Of a stretch of 64,000 nt of DNA, positions 3,081 through 64,000 are shown piece after piece (within the stretch, counting starts at the first letter, position 1; each line of letters starts with the position of its first letter). A model generated the notes under the pieces. It saw only the letters and a list, made by a program, of their open reading frames with translations. It was not told the DNA's origin and did no database searches. This DNA is from Leptothermofonsia sichuanensis E412 (GTDB taxonomy: Bacteria > Cyanobacteriota > Cyanobacteriia > Leptolyngbyales > Leptolyngbyaceae), in the NCBI RefSeq assembly GCF_019891175.1, contig NZ_CP072600.1, forward strand, positions 930,001-994,000, in the 5' to 3' direction. Made by a program: the position numbers and the translations under genes.

Positions 3081-4739
3081 TTTTGAAAGAAGAGGGGCTG
3101 CCTGTAAGAGAGTTTGTGTGTAAGGGTGCTGGGGATGGTTAAAAATATCCTGGGTTTGCCCCAGTTCGACAATTTTGCCCGCATTCATAACCGCAATGCG
3201 ATCGCAAAAGAACCTCGCTACCCACAGATCATGGGTGATAAATAAGTAGGTCAGGTTAAACTCCTGTTTCAACTCGCGCATCAGTTCCAGCACTTGCGTC
3301 TGCACACTGGCATCCAGCATACTCACAGGTTCATCACAGATCAGCAGTTGGGGACGGGTGATCAGGGCACGGGCGATCGCCACCCGTTGCTGTTGTCCTC
3401 CCGATAGCTCCGCTGGATAGCGATGGTAGAACTCCTCAACCGGAAGCAGACCCACTCGCTCCAGCATTTGCCTGACCTGCCCCTCTGCCTCTGAAGGGGA
3501 CGCCAGGTGATGAATTAATAATGGGTCAGCAATCCCTTCTCCGACCGTCATCATTGGATTCAGACAGGCATGGGGGTCTTGAAACACCATCTGCATCTGC
3601 CGCCGTTGCTGACGGAGCGCCTGCCGCCCCATGCCGGTCAACGTCTTCCCCAAAAACTCTACCGTCCCGGCGGTTGGACGAATCAGTTGCAGAATGGTGC
3701 GGGAGAGCGTACTCTTACCGCAACCCGACTCCCCCACCAGCCCCAGGGTTTCTCCCGGATAGAGTTCCAGGGTAATGTTGTCCACGGCTTTAATGGTCCG
3801 GTCGTCTCTGGACAGGAGCCGGGCCACAAAATTCTGCTCCAGGGTGTAGTGCTGTTTCAGGTTCTGGAGGCGCAGCAGAGGAGTCAGGGACGCCGTCAGG
3901 GATGCAGGAGTTGAGCCAGGCTTTTCCTTCTTTTTCCCACCGTTCCCACTCTGCAAGTGGAGTGCAGCCTGCAATAGCGATCGCGTGTACTGGTGTTGCG
4001 GTTGTTGCAAAACAGCCGCTGTCTGCCCAACTTCTACAAACCTGCCGTCATACATCACCGCAATCCGATCGCAATACTCCCCAATCATCGCCAGATCATG
4101 GGAGATGACCAGCAGTGCCATGTGGCGCTCATCGCAAAGGCGGGTAAGCTCCTGCAAAATTTGGGCTGAGACGGTCACATCCAGACTGGTGGTTGGTTCG
4201 TCTGCCACAATCAGCTTTGGATTCAGCAATAATGCCAGCGCGATCGCTACCCGTTGCCGCATTCCTCCACTGAATTCATGGGGATACTGTGCCCACCGGC
4301 TGGCAGGAATTTTGACTGCCTCCAGCATTTCCAGTGCCCGTTCCTTTGCCTGGCGTTGAGAAAGCTGCGGCTGGTGCGATCGCAATGTTTCCAGACAATG
4401 CTCCCCAACCGTCATTAACGGATTCAGCCGGGTCATGGGATCCTGGAAAATCAGTGCCACCGCCTCTCCTCGAAACCGCCGCAATTCAACTGGCGAAAGA
4501 TCAAAGACGGATTGACCGTCAAACATCACGGCCCCTTCAACGCGGGTGTCTTCTGGCAGCAGTCGCATCACTGCCCGTCCCAAGGTAGACTTGCCACAGC
4601 CTGACTCTCCTACCAGTCCCAGCTTTTCCCCTGGACGCAAGCTAAACGAAACATTGTCAACCGCCCACAGCGTTTGCCCCGTCCCCCGCTGCGGATAAGC
4701 CACCCTCAACTGTTCAACCTCAAGCAACAAATCCCTCAT
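3069..4739 (-). CDS. Dual-ATPase ABC transporter protein, peptide/nickel type (DppD-DppF fusion)
   Basis: This 556-residue protein carries two complete ABC ATPase domains. Domain 1 (about 1-260) has GLVGESGCGKST, signature FSGGMRQRVAIA and LIVADEPTTSLD. Domain 2 (about 290-550) has a second [24 protein letters not shown] and LLICDEPVSMLD. Each ends in the oligopeptide-transporter tail (QHQYTRSLLQAA; HPQHPYTQTLLQAA). Family knowledge: it energises an importer for peptides, nickel or similar solutes (DppD/F, YejF, GsiA type). No permease or binding protein lies beside it, so the substrate cannot be assigned. The extreme C-terminus runs into dispersed repeat F, so the last residues may be repeat-derived. 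Confidence 0.9.
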   Translation of the reverse strand: MRDLLLEVEQLRVAYPQRGTGQTLWAVDNVSFSLRPGEKLGLVGESGCGKSTLGRAVMRLLPEDTRVEGAVMFDGQSVFDLSPVELRRFRGEAVALIFQDPMTRLNPLMTVGEHCLETLRSHQPQLSQRQAKERALEMLEAVKIPASRWAQYPHEFSGGMRQRVAIALALLLNPKLIVADEPTTSLDVTVSAQILQELTRLCDERHMALLVISHDLAMIGEYCDRIAVMYDGRFVEVGQTAAVLQQPQHQYTRSLLQAALHLQSGNGGKKKEKPGSTPASLTASLTPLLRLQNLKQHYTLEQNFVARLLSRDDRTIKAVDNITLELYPGETLGLVGESGCGKSTLSRTILQLIRPTAGTVEFLGKTLTGMGRQALRQQRRQMQMVFQDPHACLNPMMTVGEGIADPLLIHHLASPSEAEGQVRQMLERVGLLPVEEFYHRYPAELSGGQQQRVAIARALITRPQLLICDEPVSMLDASVQTQVLELMRELKQEFNLTYLFITHDLWVARFFCDRIAVMNAGKIVELGQTQDIFNHPQHPYTQTLLQAAPLLSKQNL

Positions 4740-54745: not shown

Positions 54746-56443
54746 TTAGAATGAGAAGGTCGTCCGAATAACACCAACAAACTGGGTGGCGTTGTCGCTA
54801 TTATGCTCTGGATTAAGGATAACGATCAGACCTGGCGTAATTGCGATATTTGGAGTAATCCGATGGCGATACAGAGCTTCCAGATGGATTGATGTATCGT
54901 TATCCTCACGGTTGGCAATATCGTTATCGATAACTTTGGGAGGAACTCCCACAATAATACCGCCCAGGTTACCCTTCTTACCCAGGTCAGGAAATGCCAG
55001 GAATGCAGCTCCATTCAAGAGTCTTGCGTCATTGTTACCATTCTGCTGAGTTGCCCAGGAATAGCCAAACCAGCCACCCAGGATGAACTGGGGACTGAGT
55101 TTCCATTGGAGTTGAGCGGAAACGGTATCTGAGGAGGTGGGTCTACGCAGAATTGCAGTTGAACCAAAGGGATTGGCAGCAAATCCACTACCTGTGCTTG
55201 AGGTCAGGTTTACTTCATTACCAGGGAAGTAGGAGCGGGCATAGGTAAACGCCACGTCAAAGGTTTTGCTGGGCTTGATAACAACCTGTCCCAGAGCGGT
55301 GAAGGCACCATTAAACAGACCGTCTTTTGGGCTGGGAACGTTGCTGTTTGTGTCAGCAATATAGCCCCCCTCCAGACTAAGGAAACTGCTGAACTTATAG
55401 GCGAAGGTAAACCCTGCACCAGCGGCATTACTCCGGTATACCGGGTTGAAACGCCCAAACCGGGACAGCGCACCACCGCCACTGCTTGCAAAGGGGCTGA
55501 GCGTGCTCACCAGACCGTTGTAAAACTCGTTCCCAACAGCGTCTACCTGAATCCGGAGGTTATCGCCAACCGGGAAACGATAGTAGACCTTACTAACGTC
55601 AACCTGGTTGTTGTTGTTGCCATCAAACCCCAGGCGGGTCATATTGGTCCCTGTGAAAGCACCAGAGAAGGGGGTGACATTGCGTGCCTGTGTCCGAATC
55701 CTTAATGTATCCTTACCCGTAAAGCTGCTATCGAAGTTGAGCCGCACCCGGTTTACAAAGATCGGTTCAGTCTGGTCATCCTTTAAGCGATCTTCGTTGC
55801 GGGCATTAATTCCACTTAAGAAGCCATCACTACCGTTACGGGTGGCGCGATCGCCGAACGTATCTGCGACAGCAAAGATAACTTCACCCACCAGTTTGGT
55901 TGTGGTCGAAAATTGCTGTTTTTCCAGGGTCGCGGTGCGCACTTCGAGCTGGTCTACCCGACCGCGCAGGACTGCCAGCTCAGCCGCGAATTCTTCCTGG
56001 AGCTTTTGCAGTGCCAGCAGATCTTCTTTCCGAACCAAATCAGCGGTAGCCGCAGTAATTAGCTCATTAATCCGATCCAGACAGGCGTTAAGCCCGGCTG
56101 CAAACTCATAACGGCTGAGGGCGCGGTTGCCTCGATAGGTCCGATCTGGGTAACCCACGATACAGCCATAACGTTCGACCAGGGATTGTAGTGCCTGGAA
56201 CGCCCAATCTGTCGGTCTGACATCGGTTAACTGAGAAACGGAAGTTACCTGACCTGATACCGTCGTAAATTCGCCATTACTGTAATCGGCAACCTTCTCT
56301 AGAGTTGACCGGGTTAAGGGACTGGCAGAGTTTTGATTACTCTGGATGCTCTCAGCCTGCTGAGCCAGAGCAGCGTTAGCCAGTACAGTTGCCCCTAACA
56401 TTGCTGGAGCAACTAACAAAATGCTGCGTACTACACGATGCAT
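54746..56443 (-). CDS. SLH-domain porin (iron-uptake/OprB-like, SomB type)
   Basis: 565 residues. A signal peptide ends at ANAALAQ (about 28). A single SLH domain (about 70-135) reads VSQLTDVRPTDWAFQALQSL, VERYGCIVGYPDRTYRGNRA and LSRYEFAAGLNACLDRINEL; it anchors the porin to cell-wall polymers. A coiled coil (about 140-180) precedes the OprB-type beta-barrel, which ends with TTFSF, a C-terminal Phe as in outer-membrane proteins. Such porins pass small solutes and inorganic ions. Divergent from pstS, with a 752-base shared upstream region. Confidence 0.93.
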   Translation of the reverse strand: MHRVVRSILLVAPAMLGATVLANAALAQQAESIQSNQNSASPLTRSTLEKVADYSNGEFTTVSGQVTSVSQLTDVRPTDWAFQALQSLVERYGCIVGYPDRTYRGNRALSRYEFAAGLNACLDRINELITAATADLVRKEDLLALQKLQEEFAAELAVLRGRVDQLEVRTATLEKQQFSTTTKLVGEVIFAVADTFGDRATRNGSDGFLSGINARNEDRLKDDQTEPIFVNRVRLNFDSSFTGKDTLRIRTQARNVTPFSGAFTGTNMTRLGFDGNNNNQVDVSKVYYRFPVGDNLRIQVDAVGNEFYNGLVSTLSPFASSGGGALSRFGRFNPVYRSNAAGAGFTFAYKFSSFLSLEGGYIADTNSNVPSPKDGLFNGAFTALGQVVIKPSKTFDVAFTYARSYFPGNEVNLTSSTGSGFAANPFGSTAILRRPTSSDTVSAQLQWKLSPQFILGGWFGYSWATQQNGNNDARLLNGAAFLAFPDLGKKGNLGGIIVGVPPKVIDNDIANREDNDTSIHLEALYRHRITPNIAITPGLIVILNPEHNSDNATQFVGVIRTTFSF

Positions 56444-57195
56444 GTTTCTTTCCTCACATCCAATAGGTTTTGAACACTGAATTCATTTGCAAAACTCTGT
56501 TAAATCAAGAGCTTACATTTCCAGAATTCAAACAGACAATTGAGACAACTGGAGTACACCAAATGTACTCGCTAGATACCTGATTTACTACCCCAAAAGG
56601 GATACACCTAATAACCCTACAACCAGACCCGTTAATTGAAAACCAACAGAAACATAATCGAAAGTTAAGGTTAGTTAAAGACAGGATTAAGCTATTACCG
56701 GGTAGTCAGGTTTCGTCAGGTATTGGTGGTTTCCCTGCAATGCCAACCATTCTTTTTGTAGTGTTTTGAACAGCTATTGTAAAAGTCAGAAATCCTATAT
56801 TGGCAGGGGTCTAAGCCAAATTTCAGATTTTACCTCCTGCCTTCCGCATCCTAATCCTACCTGAATATTTTGCTTAATCCAGACAGCCCAATGTCAACAG
56901 ATTTAGATAACTCCAAAGTTATCTTGTCTGGACAGACGAATGGTTAGCCAGAGTCTACTGTCCCCCTGATTACCTCATTAATGAAAATTAATAGAAATAA
57001 GACCTGTCAGGATAACTTGGAGTTAAATATCCTGTTTTCTTTACCTTTTGATTATAATTTGTTAACCGAGAATTAACCTTATCATATTACTTTACCCCGT
57101 ATAAGCTTTGACATCATAGACCCTTAACCTTGGGCGTGTATCGTAACTAAGTTGATATTTTTTGTGCATGTGTAGCTTCACGGAGTAGATGGTTT
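56444..57195. other. 752-base divergent upstream region (porin / pstS)
   Basis: It is A/T-rich and gene-free. The pst-proximal part contains a Pho box (57039-57079) and a further CTTAACCT at 57123-57130. On the minus strand, near 56660-56680, two TTAAC units spaced by 10 bases face the porin; spacing and match are too poor for a firm Pho-box call. Confidence 0.6.
57039..57079 (+). promoter_or_regulatory. Pho box upstream of pstS
   Basis: Four 8-base units with 3-base A/T-rich spacers: CTTTACCT, GATTATAA, GTTAACCG and ATTAACCT. The third and fourth are the best matches to the cyanobacterial PhoB/SphR consensus CTTAACCT; the second is weak. The 11-bp period is exact. It ends 116 bases before the pstS ATG. 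Confidence 0.8.
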
Positions 57196-58218
57196 ATGGC
57201 AATCAACGCACTGAAATCTAAGCTCAATCGCTTTACGGTTCTGGGTGCGATCGCGGCATCAGCTACAGTGGCTGGACTTTCTATCCCGTCCGTTCAGTCC
57301 CAAAGCATCATTAAGGTTGACGGGTCCAGTACTGTTTATCCCATTACCGAACGGATTGCAGAAGGTTTTCAGAAGACTGGGAAAGGAAGAGTAACGGTTG
57401 GTATTTCTGGCACAGGTGGTGGCTTCAAGAAGTTCTGCAACGGGGATACCGATATTTCTAATGCTTCTCGTCCCATCCTGGAAAAGGAAATGAAGGTTTG
57501 TGCTGAGAAGGGGATCCGGTACATCGAACTGCCCGTAGCATACGACGCTCTGACAGTCATGGTTAATCCCCAGAACAACTGGGTAGACAGTATGACCGTC
57601 GCTGAACTCAAAAAGATCTGGGAACCCGCTGCTCAGGGTAAAATTACCAACTGGAGCCAGGTTCGCTCTGGATTTCCCAATGCACCGTTGAAACTGTTTG
57701 GGCCTGGTGCTGACTCTGGAACCTTTGACTACTTTACAGAAGCCATTGTTGGTAAGGCTAAATCCAGCCGGACTGACTTCACGGGCAGTGAAGACGATAA
57801 CGTTCTGGTGCAGGGGATTGCCCGTGACAAGAATGCCCTCGGATTTTTTGGATTGGCTTACTACGAAGCCAATAAGTCACGCTTAAAGTCTGTGAAAATT
57901 GTCAATCCAAAGACTGGTCAGGCCGTTCCTCCCTCAGCCAAAACAGTTATCGATGGCACTTATCAGCCCCTGTCCCGGCCTATCTTCATTTATGTCAATG
58001 CCAAGTCAGCGGAGAGACCCGAAGTGAAGGCATTTGTTGAGTACTATATGAAAAATGCCCAGGCAGCGGTCAATGCCGTTAAGTATGTGCCATTGACCAG
58101 TGGAGATTACACCAAAGCACTGGCTCGGTTCCAGAAGAGACAAATTGGCACCGTGTTTGGTGGCAAGGAAGAGATTGGGGTGAAGGTGGCAGACATCCTG
58201 AGCCGCACTCCCAAGTAG
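57196..58218 (+). CDS. pstS: Phosphate ABC transporter substrate-binding protein PstS (SphX-like)
   Basis: 340 residues. The signal peptide runs to about 35 ([11 protein letters not shown]). Phosphate-loop motifs are [46 protein letters not shown] and [13 protein letters not shown]. It delivers phosphate to the PstCA channel in the periplasm. It resembles the SphX subgroup. A Pho box precedes it, and a hairpin lies between it and pstC, which would favour more pstS than pstCAB product. Confidence 0.95.
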
Positions 58219-58462: not shown

Positions 58463-59395
58463 ATGACCGATCCCTTCCTATCCATCGTTGGATCTACCCG
58501 GTTCACTGAGCGCAAGGTAAGTCGTGAACTTAAGGAACGGGCGATCGCCACTGTTCTATTCCTTGCTGCTCTAGTATCGGTGGCAACGACCGTTGCAATT
58601 ATGTGGATTCTGATCAGCGAATCCATCCAACTGTTTCAGCACGTTTCCCTCTGGGAATTTCTGACCGGTACGGAATGGGCACCCCTGTTTGAACCACCCC
58701 GCTACGGAATTTTGCCCCTGGTGTGCGGCACCCTGGTCACCTCCGGGGTTGCACTCTTTGTTGCTGTGCCCATGGGCACGATCGCGGCCCTTTATCTAAC
58801 AGAGTTTGCCTCTCCCAGACTGCGGGAAGCGGTAAAACCCATTCTGGAACTGCTGGCAGGCATCCCCACCGTAGTTTATGGCTACTTCGCACTTCTGTTT
58901 GTCACGCCTCTACTGCAACTTCTGCTACCTGAACTACCAGGCTTCAATATGCTGAGTCCAGGGCTGGTCATGGGTATTATGATCACCCCCTTAATTAGCT
59001 CTATCAGCGAAGATGCTATGCGAGCAGTGCCCCTTGAACTGCGGGAAGGTTCCTACGCCGCTGGGGCAACCCGGTTTCAAACCGCCTGGAAAGTGGTGTT
59101 TCCAGCCGCCATTTCAGGCATTTCAGCCTCCTACATCCTGGGCATTTCACGGGCAGTAGGGGAAACCATGATCGTGGCGATCGCCGCCGGGCTTCAGCCC
59201 ATCATCACCCTCAACCCGCTGGACTCTGCTGCCACCATCACCGCGTACATTGTGCAGGTCAGCCTGGGCGACATTCCCCACGGTACGCCTGAATATCAAA
59301 CAATTTTTGCTGCTGGTCTAACCCTGGTGGTGATCACGCTGATTTTCAATATCATCGGCTACTTCTTAAGTAGACACTATCGGGAAAAGTATTAG
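58463..59395 (+). CDS. pstC: Phosphate ABC transporter permease PstC
   Basis: 310 residues with six hydrophobic helices. Family motifs: SLWEFLTGTEWAPLFEPPRY, GILPLVCGTLVTSGVALFVA, EFASPRLREAVKPILELLAG and IPTVVYGYFALLFVTP. The coupling loop is RAVPLELREGSYAAGATRFQ, followed by VGETMIVAIAAG. With PstA it forms the membrane channel for phosphate. It begins MTDPFLSIVGSTRF at 58463. Confidence 0.95.
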   Translation: MTDPFLSIVGSTRFTERKVSRELKERAIATVLFLAALVSVATTVAIMWILISESIQLFQHVSLWEFLTGTEWAPLFEPPRYGILPLVCGTLVTSGVALFVAVPMGTIAALYLTEFASPRLREAVKPILELLAGIPTVVYGYFALLFVTPLLQLLLPELPGFNMLSPGLVMGIMITPLISSISEDAMRAVPLELREGSYAAGATRFQTAWKVVFPAAISGISASYILGISRAVGETMIVAIAAGLQPIITLNPLDSAATITAYIVQVSLGDIPHGTPEYQTIFAAGLTLVVITLIFNIIGYFLSRHYREKY

Positions 59396-59446: not shown

Positions 59447-60397
59447 ATGACGGTCAAAAACTTGCAACAGCAAAATCAAACGCCAGAACTAGAGGAATTG
59501 CGAGCCAATATTGACCGCCGCAAGCTCTTGAGCGCTCTGTTTGCTGTCATTGGGCTGCTGTCAATTCTGGCGGGTTTAATTGTGATCCTGGCACTGGTGA
59601 TCCAGTTAGCCGTCGAGGGAATTCCCCGGCTCTCCTGGCAGTTTTTCACCTCCTTTCCCAGCAGTGATCCTGAGATGGCAGGGATTCTGTCTGCCTGGGT
59701 TGGAAGTTTCCTGGTGATGCTGGTGACAACAGCAGCAGCGGTGCCATTGGGAATAGCAGCAGGTATTTATCTGGAAGAATATGCCCGTAAAGATTGGTTG
59801 TCAGCGCTCATTGAAATTAATGTGACAAACTTGGCAGGGGTGCCTTCGATTGTTTATGGGCTGCTAGCGCTGGGATTTTTCAATTACATCCTCAATCTGG
59901 GCGAGAGCATTTTGACGGCTGGCTTGACCCTGGGGTTACTGATTTTGCCCGTGGTGATTGTGACCACCCGCGAAGCATTGCGAGCAATTCCAGATAGCTT
60001 GCGGGAGGCAGCTTATGCCCTGGGTGCGAGCAAATGGCGCACGATTTGGGATCATGTGTTGCCCTACTCGGCAGGCAGTATTTTGACCGGCATAATTATT
60101 GGCCTGTCCCGGGCGATCGGGGAAACGGCTCCGCTGGTCACAATTGGTGCCCTCACCTTTATTGCTTTCCTGCCCCCTTCACCAATTCAGCCAGAATTTC
60201 CATTTTTCTCGCTAGAGTGGTTGAAGTCGCCCTTTACGGTCATGCCAATTCAAATGTTCAATTGGGTTTCTCGTCCTGAAATTGAGTTTCAGGTCAACGC
60301 GGCGGCAGCAGGTGTGGTTCTGGTTTTCATGACCCTGACCATGAACGGTCTGGCAATTTACCTCCGTTATCGGTTTCGGAAGGGGATCAAATGGTAG
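59447..60397 (+). CDS. pstA: Phosphate ABC transporter permease PstA
   Basis: 316 residues from ATG 59447. Six hydrophobic helices; [60 protein letters not shown] and the coupling loop [20 protein letters not shown] are typical. [15 protein letters not shown] marks the end of the transport domain. It partners PstC. Its stop overlaps the pstB start by 7 bases. Confidence 0.95.
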
Positions 60398-61194
60398 AAG
60401 ATGTATCCAGCTCTTTGCATCGTCTGAGTGCAATTCAACCCAAGGCTCAGGTCAGAGATCTGAGTTTTTATTACGATGGCTCCGTTGGCGTCTTGAAAAA
60501 CATCAATCTGACGGTTGCCAAACATCAGGTGACAGCCCTGATTGGTCCATCCGGGTGCGGCAAAACAACGTTACTGCGGTGCTTTAACCGGATGCATGAC
60601 CTTTATCCCGGCAATCGCTATGAAGGGGAAATTGTCTTGGATTCCAGTGTCAACATTCTCGATCGGCGGGTTGATCCGATCGAGGTGCGGATGCGGATCA
60701 GCATGGTGTTCCAGCGTCCAAATCCATTCCCCAAGTCAATTTATGAGAATGTGGCTTATGGTCTGAGGGTGCGGAATGAACGTAGACGAAGCGTGATTGA
60801 TGAAAAAGTGGAGCAGTCACTCCGACTGGCTGCCCTCTGGGATGAAGTGAAAGACCGTCTGCAAGAGCCAGCTTACAACCTCTCAGGAGGACAGCAACAA
60901 CGCCTCTGCATTGCCCGCGCCCTTGCAACCGATCCAGAAATGCTGTTGTTTGATGAACCAACTTCAGCGCTGGATCCCATTGCCACTGCCAGTATTGAAG
61001 AACTGATGACCGATCTCAAGCAGCACGTCACCATCCTGATTGTGACCCACAGTATGCAGCAGGCAGCAAGACTTTCCGATTACACCGCTTTCATGTTCCT
61101 GGGTGAACTGGTGGAGTTCAATGAAACAACGGCTCTATTTAACAATCCCTTAAAGAAACAAACCGAAGATTATATCAAGGGACGTTTTGGGTAA
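60391..61194 (+). CDS. pstB: Phosphate ABC transporter ATPase PstB
   Basis: 267 residues. Walker A is [21 protein letters not shown]-loop region [20 protein letters not shown], signature [20 protein letters not shown] and Walker [38 protein letters not shown] is diagnostic of PstB. It powers the PstSCA importer. The start overlaps pstA; 16 bases after its stop comes the first TonB-like gene. Confidence 0.96.
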
Positions 61195-61210: not shown

Positions 61211-62002
61211 ATGGCGAATTTATTGCCCCTGAAAGCTAGAAAACTGCCATCAACCGTTGCTTTTTTATGGCGACCCATGCTGCTCATTGCTTTGGGATGC
61301 CATGCTCTGCTCCTGTTTGTTCCTCTGGGCGAGCAGAAGAAAGCCCCACCCAAGGCGGATGAGAAGGCCGTGAAAATCACCCGCATTCCCAAAACCAAAA
61401 CCAATCTCAATCAACCACCAAAACCGGCTGTCAGAACCAGACCTGCGGTGCAGCAGCGGCGGACAACCCCGCCACCACCAGTAATTGTCACCAAACCATC
61501 CCCTACTCCTTCCCCTGCTACCAGCCCAAATCCAAAAGGTTCTCCAGCCGCTAAGAGCGATCAGCCTGGTGGAGCAGAAGGACCAAAAGTCGATGAGGTG
61601 ACAGAAGCTTTCACGGAACCGTTTGCTGAGTTTGTGGTGAATCGGACTCAGGTTGACGGGAGCGTGCTTCCGGAACCACTTCGTGCTCCAGCCGATGCCC
61701 CCGTGACGGCTGAATTGTTTCCCGATCCCAATGCGTTTTTTTCTGACCCAGCCAAGTTAACAAAGCGGAAGGGGTTAGTGGCGTTCGATTGGTTCAGTCC
61801 AATTAAGCCGGACATTCTTTACTATGAGCACATCGAACCGATCTATAAAGGGAAGGGCTATACGCTGACGCGGAAGGGAGAGTACGGTGGTGGGGATTTG
61901 TACGAAGTGAAAAAGGGAAGCAATGTTCGCTACTTCAACATTGTGCCCACTGGAGACAAGACCGGGACGCTGATTATGGTGTGGAAGGATTCACCTGTGT
62001 AA
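61211..62002 (+). CDS. TonB-like single-helix protein (1) in the pst operon
   Basis: 263 residues. An N-terminal cytoplasmic stub precedes a membrane helix, FLWRPMLLIALGCHALLLFV (His31), then PLGEQKK and a long Pro/Thr/Lys-rich segment (about 50-120). The C-terminal domain includes GEYGGGDLYEVKKG, VRYFNIVPTG and TLIMVWKDSPV. This stub-helix-with-His, proline rod and small C-domain layout is that of TonB/TolA; the C-terminal sequence is not a TonB domain I recognise. It is 44% or so alike to its neighbour by eye in the last 50 residues. It starts 16 bases after pstB, so it is likely Pho-regulated. Confidence 0.75.
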   Translation: MANLLPLKARKLPSTVAFLWRPMLLIALGCHALLLFVPLGEQKKAPPKADEKAVKITRIPKTKTNLNQPPKPAVRTRPAVQQRRTTPPPPVIVTKPSPTPSPATSPNPKGSPAAKSDQPGGAEGPKVDEVTEAFTEPFAEFVVNRTQVDGSVLPEPLRAPADAPVTAELFPDPNAFFSDPAKLTKRKGLVAFDWFSPIKPDILYYEHIEPIYKGKGYTLTRKGEYGGGDLYEVKKGSNVRYFNIVPTGDKTGTLIMVWKDSPV

Positions 62003-62026
62003 TGATTTTCATCTGTGGAACTATCA

Positions 62027-62902
62027 ATGATGGATACCCAACTGTCTGCTACAACCAAGAACCTGCCTGCTGTTTTCAGTCTCCTCTGGCGACCGATGTT
62101 GTTTCTGGCGCTGGGGTTGCACGCTTTTTTCCTGTTCGTACCGTTGGGCGGTGCCCAGAAAGAATTGCCCCAGGTGACTGAGCAGCCTGTCAAATACAAC
62201 CGACTACCAGACTTGAAGCCTATGGCTCAGAAACCGACTCAAAAATCGCCTCAGAAACCAGCGGTAGCAGCGAGTCAACCCATCCAGCAGGCGACGATCG
62301 CCCCAGTTCCATCGCCATTAACCTCCCCCAATCCGGCACCCCCTTCTTCCTATACCCCACCCCCAGCTGAATCTGCTCCAACGAAGCCGGTAGACTCTAC
62401 CGACTCCACTGACGACACTCCCCTGGCAAGGGTAGGTTCCACTCCAATGCCCGGCAGTTCCCCACCGGCGGAACCAGCAGATGTTTCTACGGCTGAACCT
62501 ACCGTAGCCGCTGCTACTCAAAGACCTGAACTTGATTCGGATACGCAGGCGATCGTGGAACGCTTGCAAAATCTAGAGGATGGCCGCCAGATTACGGATA
62601 ACGACAGGGTGGAAGACCTGTTTACACAGGAAGCCGCAACCAAATTCTTCGCCAATCCGGAGAAGAAGGAAGGCAAACCGGGCTTAATTGGTGTGGAATA
62701 TCTTTTGCCCCAGACGCCTGCTGAAGTATACGAAAAACTGGCCATGCTTTACTCAGATTTCTCCTTGAAAAAAGTGGGAGAGTACGGCGGTGGTCCAGTG
62801 TATGAAGTCAGGCGAGATGACTATGTGCGCTATTTCAACTTAGTTAAAGGCAAAGAGGATAAGAGTACCCTGATCGTCCTGTGGCAGGATTCCCCTCTTT
62901 AG
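62027..62902 (+). CDS. TonB-like single-helix protein (2), tandem paralogue
   Basis: About 291 residues from ATG 62027 (a GTG at 62015 is also possible). The helix LLWRPMLFLALGLHAFFLFV shares the RPML...L-H pattern with the preceding protein. A long Pro/Ser/Thr-rich rod follows (about 55-165), and the C-terminal domain ends GEYGGGPVYEVRRD, VRYFNLVKG and LIVLWQDSPL, again like its neighbour. A tandem duplication is evident. Rod length and acidic middle (ELDSDTQAIVERLQNLEDG) differ, so the two may reach different partners. The gap to the first gene is about 24 bases; same transcript. Confidence 0.75.
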   Translation: MMDTQLSATTKNLPAVFSLLWRPMLFLALGLHAFFLFVPLGGAQKELPQVTEQPVKYNRLPDLKPMAQKPTQKSPQKPAVAASQPIQQATIAPVPSPLTSPNPAPPSSYTPPPAESAPTKPVDSTDSTDDTPLARVGSTPMPGSSPPAEPADVSTAEPTVAAATQRPELDSDTQAIVERLQNLEDGRQITDNDRVEDLFTQEAATKFFANPEKKEGKPGLIGVEYLLPQTPAEVYEKLAMLYSDFSLKKVGEYGGGPVYEVRRDDYVRYFNLVKGKEDKSTLIVLWQDSPL

Positions 62903-63082
62903 TGCAGGTTCTCGAAAATAACCCACCAGGTCTGGCTTGAACCAAAAGGACACAAAGCACGCTAAAGCCTATTCGAAAACTTCCTCAGTCTGGATTTGGG
63001 CTTTAACAGCCAGGGCTTTGAGGCATTACCCTGTGTTCTCTGTGTCTCTGGGGCGAAATTTCAGGTTATGAAGTCCTCATTC
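62903..63082. repeat. Repeat-filled spacer between convergent genes
   Basis: A CACAAAG-type repeat (about 62903-62962), part of MITE-like element A (about 62963-63007) and a CACAGAG-type half-repeat (about 63029-63055). 62903-62980 also resembles 31620-31700, where the same repeats border the MgtE remnant. No gene. Confidence 0.65.
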
Positions 63083-63499
63083 CTAAGACTTTTGCTCTAC
63101 GGCCAGAGAAACGCTGTCGCCCCCAATGTCCCGCATAATTTCCAGCAGACTGGCAACTTTGGCGTAATCCAGCTTCTGGTCTGCCTTGAGGACAATGATG
63201 CCGTTGGGGTGGGTATCCAGATAGGTAGACATCTGTTGTGCCAGTTGATCAATGGTGACAGGTTGCCCCTGGACCAGAATTTGACCCTGACTATCCATCC
63301 CGACAATCATGGTGTCGGTTGATTGCTGCTCCTTCACTCCCAGTCGGGCAGTGGGCAGATCAACTTTAACGGCTGCCTGTTGCCCAGTGAGAGTCATGGA
63401 AATGATGATGAAAAAAGTTAAAACCGTCATCAGCACATCCATCATCGGCACTAGATTGACTTCGGGTACCCCCGGATTGGTTTGCTGTCTTCGCCTCAT
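63083..63499 (-). CDS. ExbD/TolR-family biopolymer transport protein
   Basis: 138 residues. A short N-terminus (MRRRQQTNPGVPEVNLVPMM) precedes the single helix DVLMTVLTFFIIISMTL, which carries the essential Asp (about residue 21) at its start. A periplasmic domain follows with IVGMDSQGQILVQGQPVTID, VLKADQKLDYAKVASLLEIM and GGDSVSLAVEQ. ExbD proteins sit in the ExbB pentamer and use proton flow to work TonB/TolA. It is convergent with the TonB-like genes. A second ExbD gene lies directly upstream, separated by MITE C. Confidence 0.92.
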   Translation of the reverse strand: MRRRQQTNPGVPEVNLVPMMDVLMTVLTFFIIISMTLTGQQAAVKVDLPTARLGVKEQQSTDTMIVGMDSQGQILVQGQPVTIDQLAQQMSTYLDTHPNGIIVLKADQKLDYAKVASLLEIMRDIGGDSVSLAVEQKS

Positions 63500-63510
63500 A
63501 ACGATTCTGC

Positions 63511-63614
63511 CAGTATGTCAACTTTGTTTTGATGAGTCCCTGAATGACGGAAAGCTGATTAGGGTTAAATTTTGAGGATCTGCGACCCTTTAAAGTTTTC
63601 TTGCCGGAACACAG
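63511..63614 (-). mobile_element. MITE-like element C, copy 3, between the exbD genes
   Basis: About 104 bases, inverse orientation, AGTATGTCAACTTTGTTTTG at one end and TTGCCGGAACACAG at the other, with GGTTAAATTTTGAGGATCTG inside. It resembles 44208-44310, and its left end resembles the end of IS630-family element a. Confidence 0.75.
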
Positions 63615-63633: not shown

Positions 63634-64000
63634 TTAACCTTCCAGTGCCAGGGAGACGCGATCGCCCCCTATAGTTTGCATTTCACCCAATAGCTGAACC
63701 ACCTGTTCATACTTAAGACTGCGGGAAGGCTGCAAAAGGACGGCTCCCTTTGGATTCTTGACCAGGTAGTCCTGCATGGCTGCCATCAGTTCTTCTCTGG
63801 TGACGGAAGTTTGGGCGATCGTAATTTGTCCACCGGGGTTCAGTTCCACAATTAACGGTTCCGGCAGGACTTCCTGGGGAGAAGGGCTGACCCGATTGCT
63901 GGGAATCGCTACATCAACGGCTTGCAGGTTGCGCAGGGTTGCCGTAATCATGACAAAGAATGCCAGAATCCCCATCATCACGTTCATCATCGGAATCAGG
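63634..64000 (-). CDS. ExbD/TolR-family protein with Asn in place of the membrane Asp; 5' end beyond window
   Basis: About 122 residues are visible; the start lies beyond 64000. The helix reads LIPMMNVMMGILAFFVMITA, aligning with LVPMMDVLMTVLTFFIIIS of the adjacent ExbD, so the usual Asp is Asn. The periplasmic domain is complete: LIVELNPGGQITIAQTSVTR, GAVLLQPSRSLKYEQVVQLL and GGDRVSLALEG. Family knowledge: the Asp is needed for proton-driven movement, so this copy may be a partner subunit without proton relay. An ExbB gene is expected upstream, outside the window. Confidence 0.88.
   Translation of the reverse strand, partial: LIPMMNVMMGILAFFVMITATLRNLQAVDVAIPSNRVSPSPQEVLPEPLIVELNPGGQITIAQTSVTREELMAAMQDYLVKNPKGAVLLQPSRSLKYEQVVQLLGEMQTIGGDRVSLALEG

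Follow-up and report, generated by a model that had tools for sequence, protein, structure and literature searches.

Many cyanobacterial genomes share a conserved pair of predicted ExbD paralogues, one with the canonical Asp of the membrane helix and the other without an acid at that site. One such pair lies at the end of the window, the whole stretch of 64,000 nucleotides from Leptothermofonsia sichuanensis E412 that was analysed (Table 1). We propose that an ExbB pentamer holding one Asp-bearing subunit (ExbD-beta) and one acid-less subunit (ExbD-alpha) would constitute a fixed asymmetric Ton motor, probably devoted to phosphate acquisition, and consider this somewhat more probable than its negation; the mixed assembly, the gearing and the substrate of this motor are our inferences from the observations below.

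Table 1. Features around the exbD pair, numbered as in the window; positions above 64000 are outside it.
Feature	Position	Strand	Remarks
SLH-OprB outer-membrane porin	54746..56443	-	divergent from pstS
Pho-box-like triple repeat	56661..56691	-	score 21 of 24; some 0.2 kb upstream of the porin gene
PstS-family phosphate-binding protein	57196..58218	+	TIGR02136 above cut-off
PstC permease	58463..59395	+	TIGR02138 above cut-off
PstA permease	59447..60397	+	TIGR00974 above cut-off
PstB, phosphate ABC transporter ATPase	60391..61194	+	TIGR00972 above cut-off
TonB-like protein 1 (TonBL)	61211..62002	+	N-terminal hydrophobic helix with AxxxH, Pro-rich spacer, unmatched C-terminal domain
TonB-like protein 2 (TonBL), same family	62015..62902	+	AxxxH
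Partner ExbD (ExbD-beta)	63083..63499	-	canonical Asp; next gene downstream of alpha
Acid-less ExbD (ExbD-alpha)	63634..64000	-	Asn at the site of E. coli Asp25; gene crosses window end
exbB	64069-64758	-	outside window; directly upstream of alpha
DUF4333 protein	64915-65751 (L014 10916-11752)		outside window; before exbB, directly upstream

An earlier note on this DNA had aligned the two ExbD helices (PMMDVLMTVL in beta, PMMNVMMGIL in alpha) and claimed that the essential Asp is changed to Asn in the second. The alignment holds, and so does the change: the Asn of alpha (residue 27 of the 142-residue form) faces Asp25 of ExbD chain 7ajq_F in the PDB alignment, where the proton-carrying Asp of the single membrane helix was not found in alpha. 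The alpha reading frame starts beyond the window, at 64050 (ATG, 138 amino acids) or 64062 (GTG, 142 amino acids), and the flank past 64000, where the same note had wished to look for exbB, does contain this gene, ending 6-18 bp upstream of the alpha start; its product scores 109.2 bits against MotA_ExbB PF01618. Alpha itself scores 80.3 bits against Pfam ExbD PF02472 (cut-off 25.4) and falls below the equivalogue cut-offs of TIGR02801 (59.0 of 127.3), TIGR02803 (42.6 of 152.95) and TIGR02804 (21.8 of 123.45), as do beta and the three other paralogues of the genome. The structure model of alpha has a mean pLDDT of 74.9, with 85-92 in the periplasmic blocks, and the eight best PDB matches of its periplasmic part are all TolR/ExbD periplasmic domains (5by4, 8vgc, 8p9r and others); the domain is predicted to have the ExbD/TolR fold. 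Alpha resembles the ExbD/TolR family (PF02472, ExbB5-ExbD2 motor) in its N-terminal helix, in this periplasmic domain and in the adjoining exbB, but differs from it in having Asn or Thr instead of the essential helix Asp. By its sequence it is classed as an ExbD homologue and not as a proton-carrying ExbD, and alone it would not be expected to work as one. A passage of PMC9008036 calls Asp25 of the ExbD helix strictly conserved and essential, and E. coli ExbD D25N is described, in a passage of PMC11658791, as inactive and failing to crosslink to TonB.

The presence of the acid-less helix was surveyed in 388 cyanobacterial genomes with a broad profile, which matched 221 of them at E <= 1e-28. 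One hundred regions from 99 of these genomes were fetched (two from one genome; one belongs to the own family); they were ranked by an Asn-type profile and are a sample rather than a census, the acid-less helix being found also in genomes outside the fetched set by a search that leaves the codon at the site free. This search matched 66 of the 388 genomes at one place each, the site being Asn in 28, by either codon, and Thr in 38, by any of the four codons; neither Asp, Glu nor any other residue appeared at the site among the 66 matches, in a search whose flanking helix letters are of the acid-less type and whose count thus leaves Asp-type helices outside, and a reversed control pattern had no match. 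A forerunner search for Asn only had found at least 25 of the 388 genomes. At this site Thr is as common as Asn, a point which, like the TonBL proteins and the pst linkage described below, the earlier note had not noticed; the loss of the acid is conserved, but not as Asn alone. By locus, the 100 fetched regions comprise 29 with Asn, 34 with Thr, nine with a pair of Asp copies and 28 where one Asp copy alone is in view, the last class including the damaged locus L208. Over all open reading frames of the fetched, family and named loci there were 154 with Asp at the site, 66 with Asn, 34 with Thr and 3 with a gap, figures in which some sequences are counted in more than one set and further paralogues are included. 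Twelve coded families have Asn, and Thr is found in one plus the damaged locus.

A scan of named genomes of all species retrieved 33 loci, all titled cyanobacterial, among them Coleofasciculus, Gloeocapsopsis, Symploca, Nodosilinea, Acaryochloris, Crocosphaera, Cyanothece and Spirulina; its pattern, PM[ML]NVMM, contains the Asn and is biased to it, so the scan was not used to claim fixation, and some of its genomes overlap with those of the class set. Within the own family alpha is present in only 4 of 42 genomes, with the gene order exbB-alpha-beta in all four, and among the 30 best own-family loci read, the 26 without alpha show Asp only. The survey shows that the acid-less substitution is conserved across many cyanobacterial families. 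Two unusual frames were set aside: that of L208, containing both exbDs in one frame as if naturally fused, comes from a draft genome in which the frames look damaged and was left out of the 63 intact loci, and the 366-residue frame of L197 is merely an upstream open frame overlapping exbB. In L086/L142 (Leptolyngbyaceae cyanobacterium SM1_4_3 / G262) the acid-less and the Asp exbD are separated by a third, shortened ExbD-like frame in which the start of the helix is missing.

Alpha is judged from its codons to be a maintained gene, neither a chance frame nor a base-call error. Comparing 136 of its codons between the window genome and a congener (G025) gives 73% protein identity, a dN of 0.157 and a dS of 1.388; for four other gene pairs in this comparison dS was saturated or could not be computed. 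The Asn codon differs silently between the two genomes, AAC versus AAT. These codons, the dN/dS and the restriction of the site to Asn and Thr in 66 genomes rule out a sequencing error or a sporadic change, and the restriction to two residues together with the conservation of the helix rules out a decaying pseudogene. The further statement of the earlier note, that the rest of the protein is well kept and seems selected, agrees with these values, and the conservation and the pairing with an Asp ExbD extend far beyond the window genome.

The acid-less copies probably form one branch of an older ExbD duplication. A quick IQ-TREE analysis was made with the site column removed, on 127 of 219 sequences thinned by similarity (a single row gapped at the site was dropped), from an alignment of few columns rooted on two paralogues of the own genome. 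It gave a support of 99 to a wider alpha branch whose earliest members bear Asp and, within it, a SH-aLRT of 87 (not starred) to an acid-less branch of 35 Asn, 14 Thr and two Asp rows; the acid and no-acid labels change three times on this site-less tree. FastTree, with the 219 sequences (two short rows dropped), suggests a second, separate Asn origin for L102, L183 and L203, whereas IQ-TREE puts L102 on the acid-less branch. Asn and Thr are interchanged within one coded genus (g92). The two Asp exceptions of the acid-less branch are L173 (G201, 4045-4458) and L224 (G168, 4068-4523): in 90 bp around the helix 67 and 81 of their bases, respectively, match their own partner, compared with 52 and 53 in the controls L014 and L099. 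It is likely, and clearer for L224, that their helices were replaced by gene conversion from the Asp partner. Orthologues with Asp, regarded in the earlier note as the mark of a sporadic change, do exist on the early alpha branches and as these two exceptions, but not as scattered point differences.

Helices were compared between 82 acid-less ExbDs and 60 partners encoded at the same loci; these counts, and those of the ExbB and TonBL motifs below, refer to distinct sequences only. Pro at −3, Leu at +6 and Phe at +8 and +9 are invariant in both alpha and beta. Position +7 is Ala in all 82 acid-less proteins versus Thr in 47 of the 60 partners, and at +4 all but one of the 82 have Gly, Ala or Ser, versus Thr or Ser in all 60. 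Helices have a mean pairwise identity of 0.76 among alpha and 0.86 among beta proteins, and since that of the periplasmic part is 0.43 and 0.40, respectively, alpha seems to drift no faster than beta outside the helix. Six residues before the site, Asp or Glu is found in 60 of 83 distinct acid-less sequences (34/35 of the Thr type, 26/48 of the Asn type) and Asn in 57 of the 60 partners; the charge is apparently shifted down the helix in acid-less ExbDs, but not in the window alpha, which like 22 of the 48 Asn-type proteins has Asn there. The ExbBs of acid-less loci keep the motif residues Thr, Glu and Thr in 73 of 75 cases, and hence their pore looks built for protons. Glu176 of ExbB is listed among the conserved, essential residues in a passage of PMC8599685.

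The genome of the window (6.43 Mb, one contig) has five ExbD genes and four ExbB genes. The four ExbDs other than alpha all have the Asp, and since the three that are neither alpha nor beta each have an adjoining ExbB, one ExbB is left for the alpha-beta pair; neither PstS nor TonBL is found near those three loci. Around and partly within the beta gene, the stretches 62900-63005, 63012-63092 and 63512-63612 match dispersed repeats of about 100 bp, with 55 rows in the own genome, one of them the region itself.

An Asp ExbD of the partner type is present in all 63 class-survey genomes with an intact acid-less locus. In 47 of them it lies in the same fetched stretch, alpha and beta being together in either gene order, and in the other 16 it is unlinked, 52-57% identical to the window beta and with Asp in each; among the named loci the Asp partner is visible in 24 of 33. 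Fifteen of the 16 split loci belong to one coded family (f13) and the remaining one to f6, and the DUF4333 gene is beside alpha in 13 of them. The regions around the unlinked betas (the 16 genomes and G201), several of which are short contigs, hold both PstS and TonBL in 5 of 17 cases and neither in 12. Because of those five, both halves of some split genomes would still point to one system; in another split genome (G046) PstS and TonBL are beside exbB-alpha and not beside beta.

In the window, pstS, pstC, pstA, pstB and the two TonBL genes follow one another on the forward strand and the exbD genes converge on them; the SLH-OprB porin may possibly be the outer-membrane component of the system. 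Among 138 loci (100 class, 33 named and 5 own family) TonBL was found in 44, DUF4333 in 36 and a PstS-type protein in 35. Split by class, PstS accompanies 13 of the 29 Asn loci, 3 of the 34 Thr loci, 2 of the 9 with double Asp and 5 of the 28 with a single Asp; for TonBL the numbers are 14, none, 3 and 8, respectively. As the all-Asp loci, double and single, also carry both, the linkage to pst and TonBL belongs to the wider ExbD family and not to the acid loss, which is not needed for the system.

SxxxH is the motif of the TonB N-terminal helix. In the TonBL family this pattern was found in the N-terminal helix of 29 of 39 distinct proteins and AxxxH in three, which include both window proteins; neither was found in the other seven. 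TonBL resembles TonB in the Pro-rich spacer, but differs from it in having no TonB C-terminal domain by Pfam. The window TonBL proteins matched nothing in Pfam (E <= 0.001) or NCBIfam, and six homologues gave no TonB match in Pfam at E <= 0.1, one having a weak LysM match below its cut-off. The C-terminal domain of TonBL protein 2 was modelled by AlphaFold with a mean pLDDT of 88.7; Foldseek returned nothing at E <= 0.001 (best 3.1e-2), the best VIA-align Z was 5.7, and no TonB domain was among the structure matches listed. The modelled domain appears to have no clear PDB fold relative among those matches. The TonB mutant H20A is called inactive in a passage of PMC11658791.

Pho-box-like sites were searched with a simple score out of 24 against a Pho-box consensus. 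The repeat upstream of the porin gene is the best in the 73 kb scanned, the best of five shuffles being 20. Leaving out upstream stretches that were shorter than 150 bases, contained N or were identical, scores of at least 20 were obtained upstream of PstS in 14 of 31 regions, TonBL in 4 of 37, exbB in 7 of 96, exbD in 1 of 187, DUF4333 in 0 of 31, PstB in 0 of 16 and other genes in 8 of 623. Compared with other genes, Fisher p is 0.0016 for exbB and 0.003 for TonBL, in counts to which related genomes contribute as non-independent members. Upstream of the exbB of the window genome no sense-strand site scores 19 or more. A tandem repeat with a spacing of 11 bp lies outside the window between this exbB and the DUF4333 gene (64874-64925, in L014), with Pho-box-like scores of 19 of 24 on the strand opposite exbB.

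Taking into account that one ExbB gene stands beside both exbDs, a mixed axle, the dimer of an active and an inactive subunit that the earlier note had brought up, would be the simplest reading. If the arrangement of five ExbB around two ExbD is assumed from the solved relatives, the ExbB pentamer would hold one beta and one alpha subunit. The beta helix alone would carry protons, with about five protonation events per turn and not ten, while alpha would occupy the other axle position, supply the second half of the periplasmic ExbD dimer and offer the TonB-like protein one fixed docking side on the complex; such a motor would most likely drive TonBL-dependent outer-membrane work in phosphate acquisition. 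The mixed motor is favoured by the site confined to Asn and Thr, the single branch, the pairing in all 63 genomes with an intact acid-less locus, the five unlinked betas that lie with PstS and TonBL, the four ExbBs for five ExbDs in the own genome, the predicted ExbD/TolR fold, the conserved ExbB motif, the SxxxH or AxxxH helix in 32 of 39 TonBL proteins and the PstS genes near Asn loci, and its phosphate role also by the Pho-box-like sites upstream of some exbB and TonBL genes. Against the motor speak the inactive D25N protein, the 16 of 63 genomes that keep the exbDs apart (with the arrangement in G046), the 12 of 17 unlinked-beta regions without PstS or TonBL, the all-Asp loci that also carry TonBL and pst, and the presence of alpha in so few own-family genomes; against the phosphate role, the scarcity of PstS and the absence of TonBL near the 34 Thr loci, the exbB of the window genome, which has no sense-strand Pho-box-like site scoring at least 19, and the relatedness of the genomes behind the Pho-box counts. 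The complete scheme, a permanently asymmetric 5:2 motor with a never-charged Asn/Thr axle subunit, five protonations per revolution and an undescribed TonB-like protein in phosphate acquisition, is more tentative, and we would put it at clearly less than even chances.

Some of the same observations could be read otherwise. Alpha homodimers in some ExbB pentamers might be non-conducting decoys, or a brake titrating ExbB or TonBL, leaving the work to beta homodimers. The D25N phenotype (PMC11658791, in the passage cited) and the 16 genomes in which alpha has no adjacent beta are in line with such a role; yet the conservation of the alpha helix (0.76, against 0.86 in beta) seems beyond the needs of a mere blocker, all 66 matches have either Asn or Thr at the site, and a single exbB accompanies the pair in the own genome, which together make the decoy unlikely in our opinion. 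If alpha and beta shared one ExbB but served separate tasks or times, with an alpha homodimer in a role needing no proton flow, then the DUF4333 gene beside alpha in most split loci and the PstS and TonBL genes around five unlinked betas would be accounted for. Their occurrence together, in either order, in 47 of the 63 loci argues against this division of labour, and we hold it to be quite unlikely. Alpha might also carry protons by another route, through the acid six residues earlier or through a water chain along Asn or Thr, as the acidic residue in 60 of 83 acid-less sequences but Asn in nearly all partners would allow; this route via −6 is not general, given the Asn of the window alpha and of 22 Asn-type proteins, and in an ideal helix position −6 would fall off the face of the site, leaving such conduction very improbable.

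The mixed motor of alpha and beta would have partial counterparts among known systems. According to a passage of PMC9008036, the two Asp residues of the ExbB-ExbD structure from S. marcescens are in different surroundings, and a two-state rotary model was proposed. The tonB1-exbB1-exbD1-exbD2 operon of Sphingobium SYK-6 likewise has two exbD genes behind one exbB, but both of its ExbDs keep Asp25 as described in a passage of PMC8599685. The AglR-AglQ/AglS gliding motor of Myxococcus also has two MotB/ExbD-like subunits per channel protein; in the relevant passages of PMC9389320 AglQ and AglS are both described with Asp and have a different task, unlike the alpha-beta pair, and their heterodimer formation is stated as unknown. 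Among the matches listed in open-PMC full text, neither a natural Asp-less ExbD nor a pst-linked Ton system of this kind was found to be reported. Tandem exbDs similar to those of SYK-6 occur elsewhere.

A widespread natural pair of an Asp and a non-Asp ExbD makes it directly testable how many carriers the 5:2 motor needs and whether its two axle subunits differ in role. Moreover, the loci described here provide cyanobacteria with a candidate powered outer-membrane system that may be linked to their phosphate supply, and a family of TonB-like proteins unmatched in Pfam and NCBIfam.
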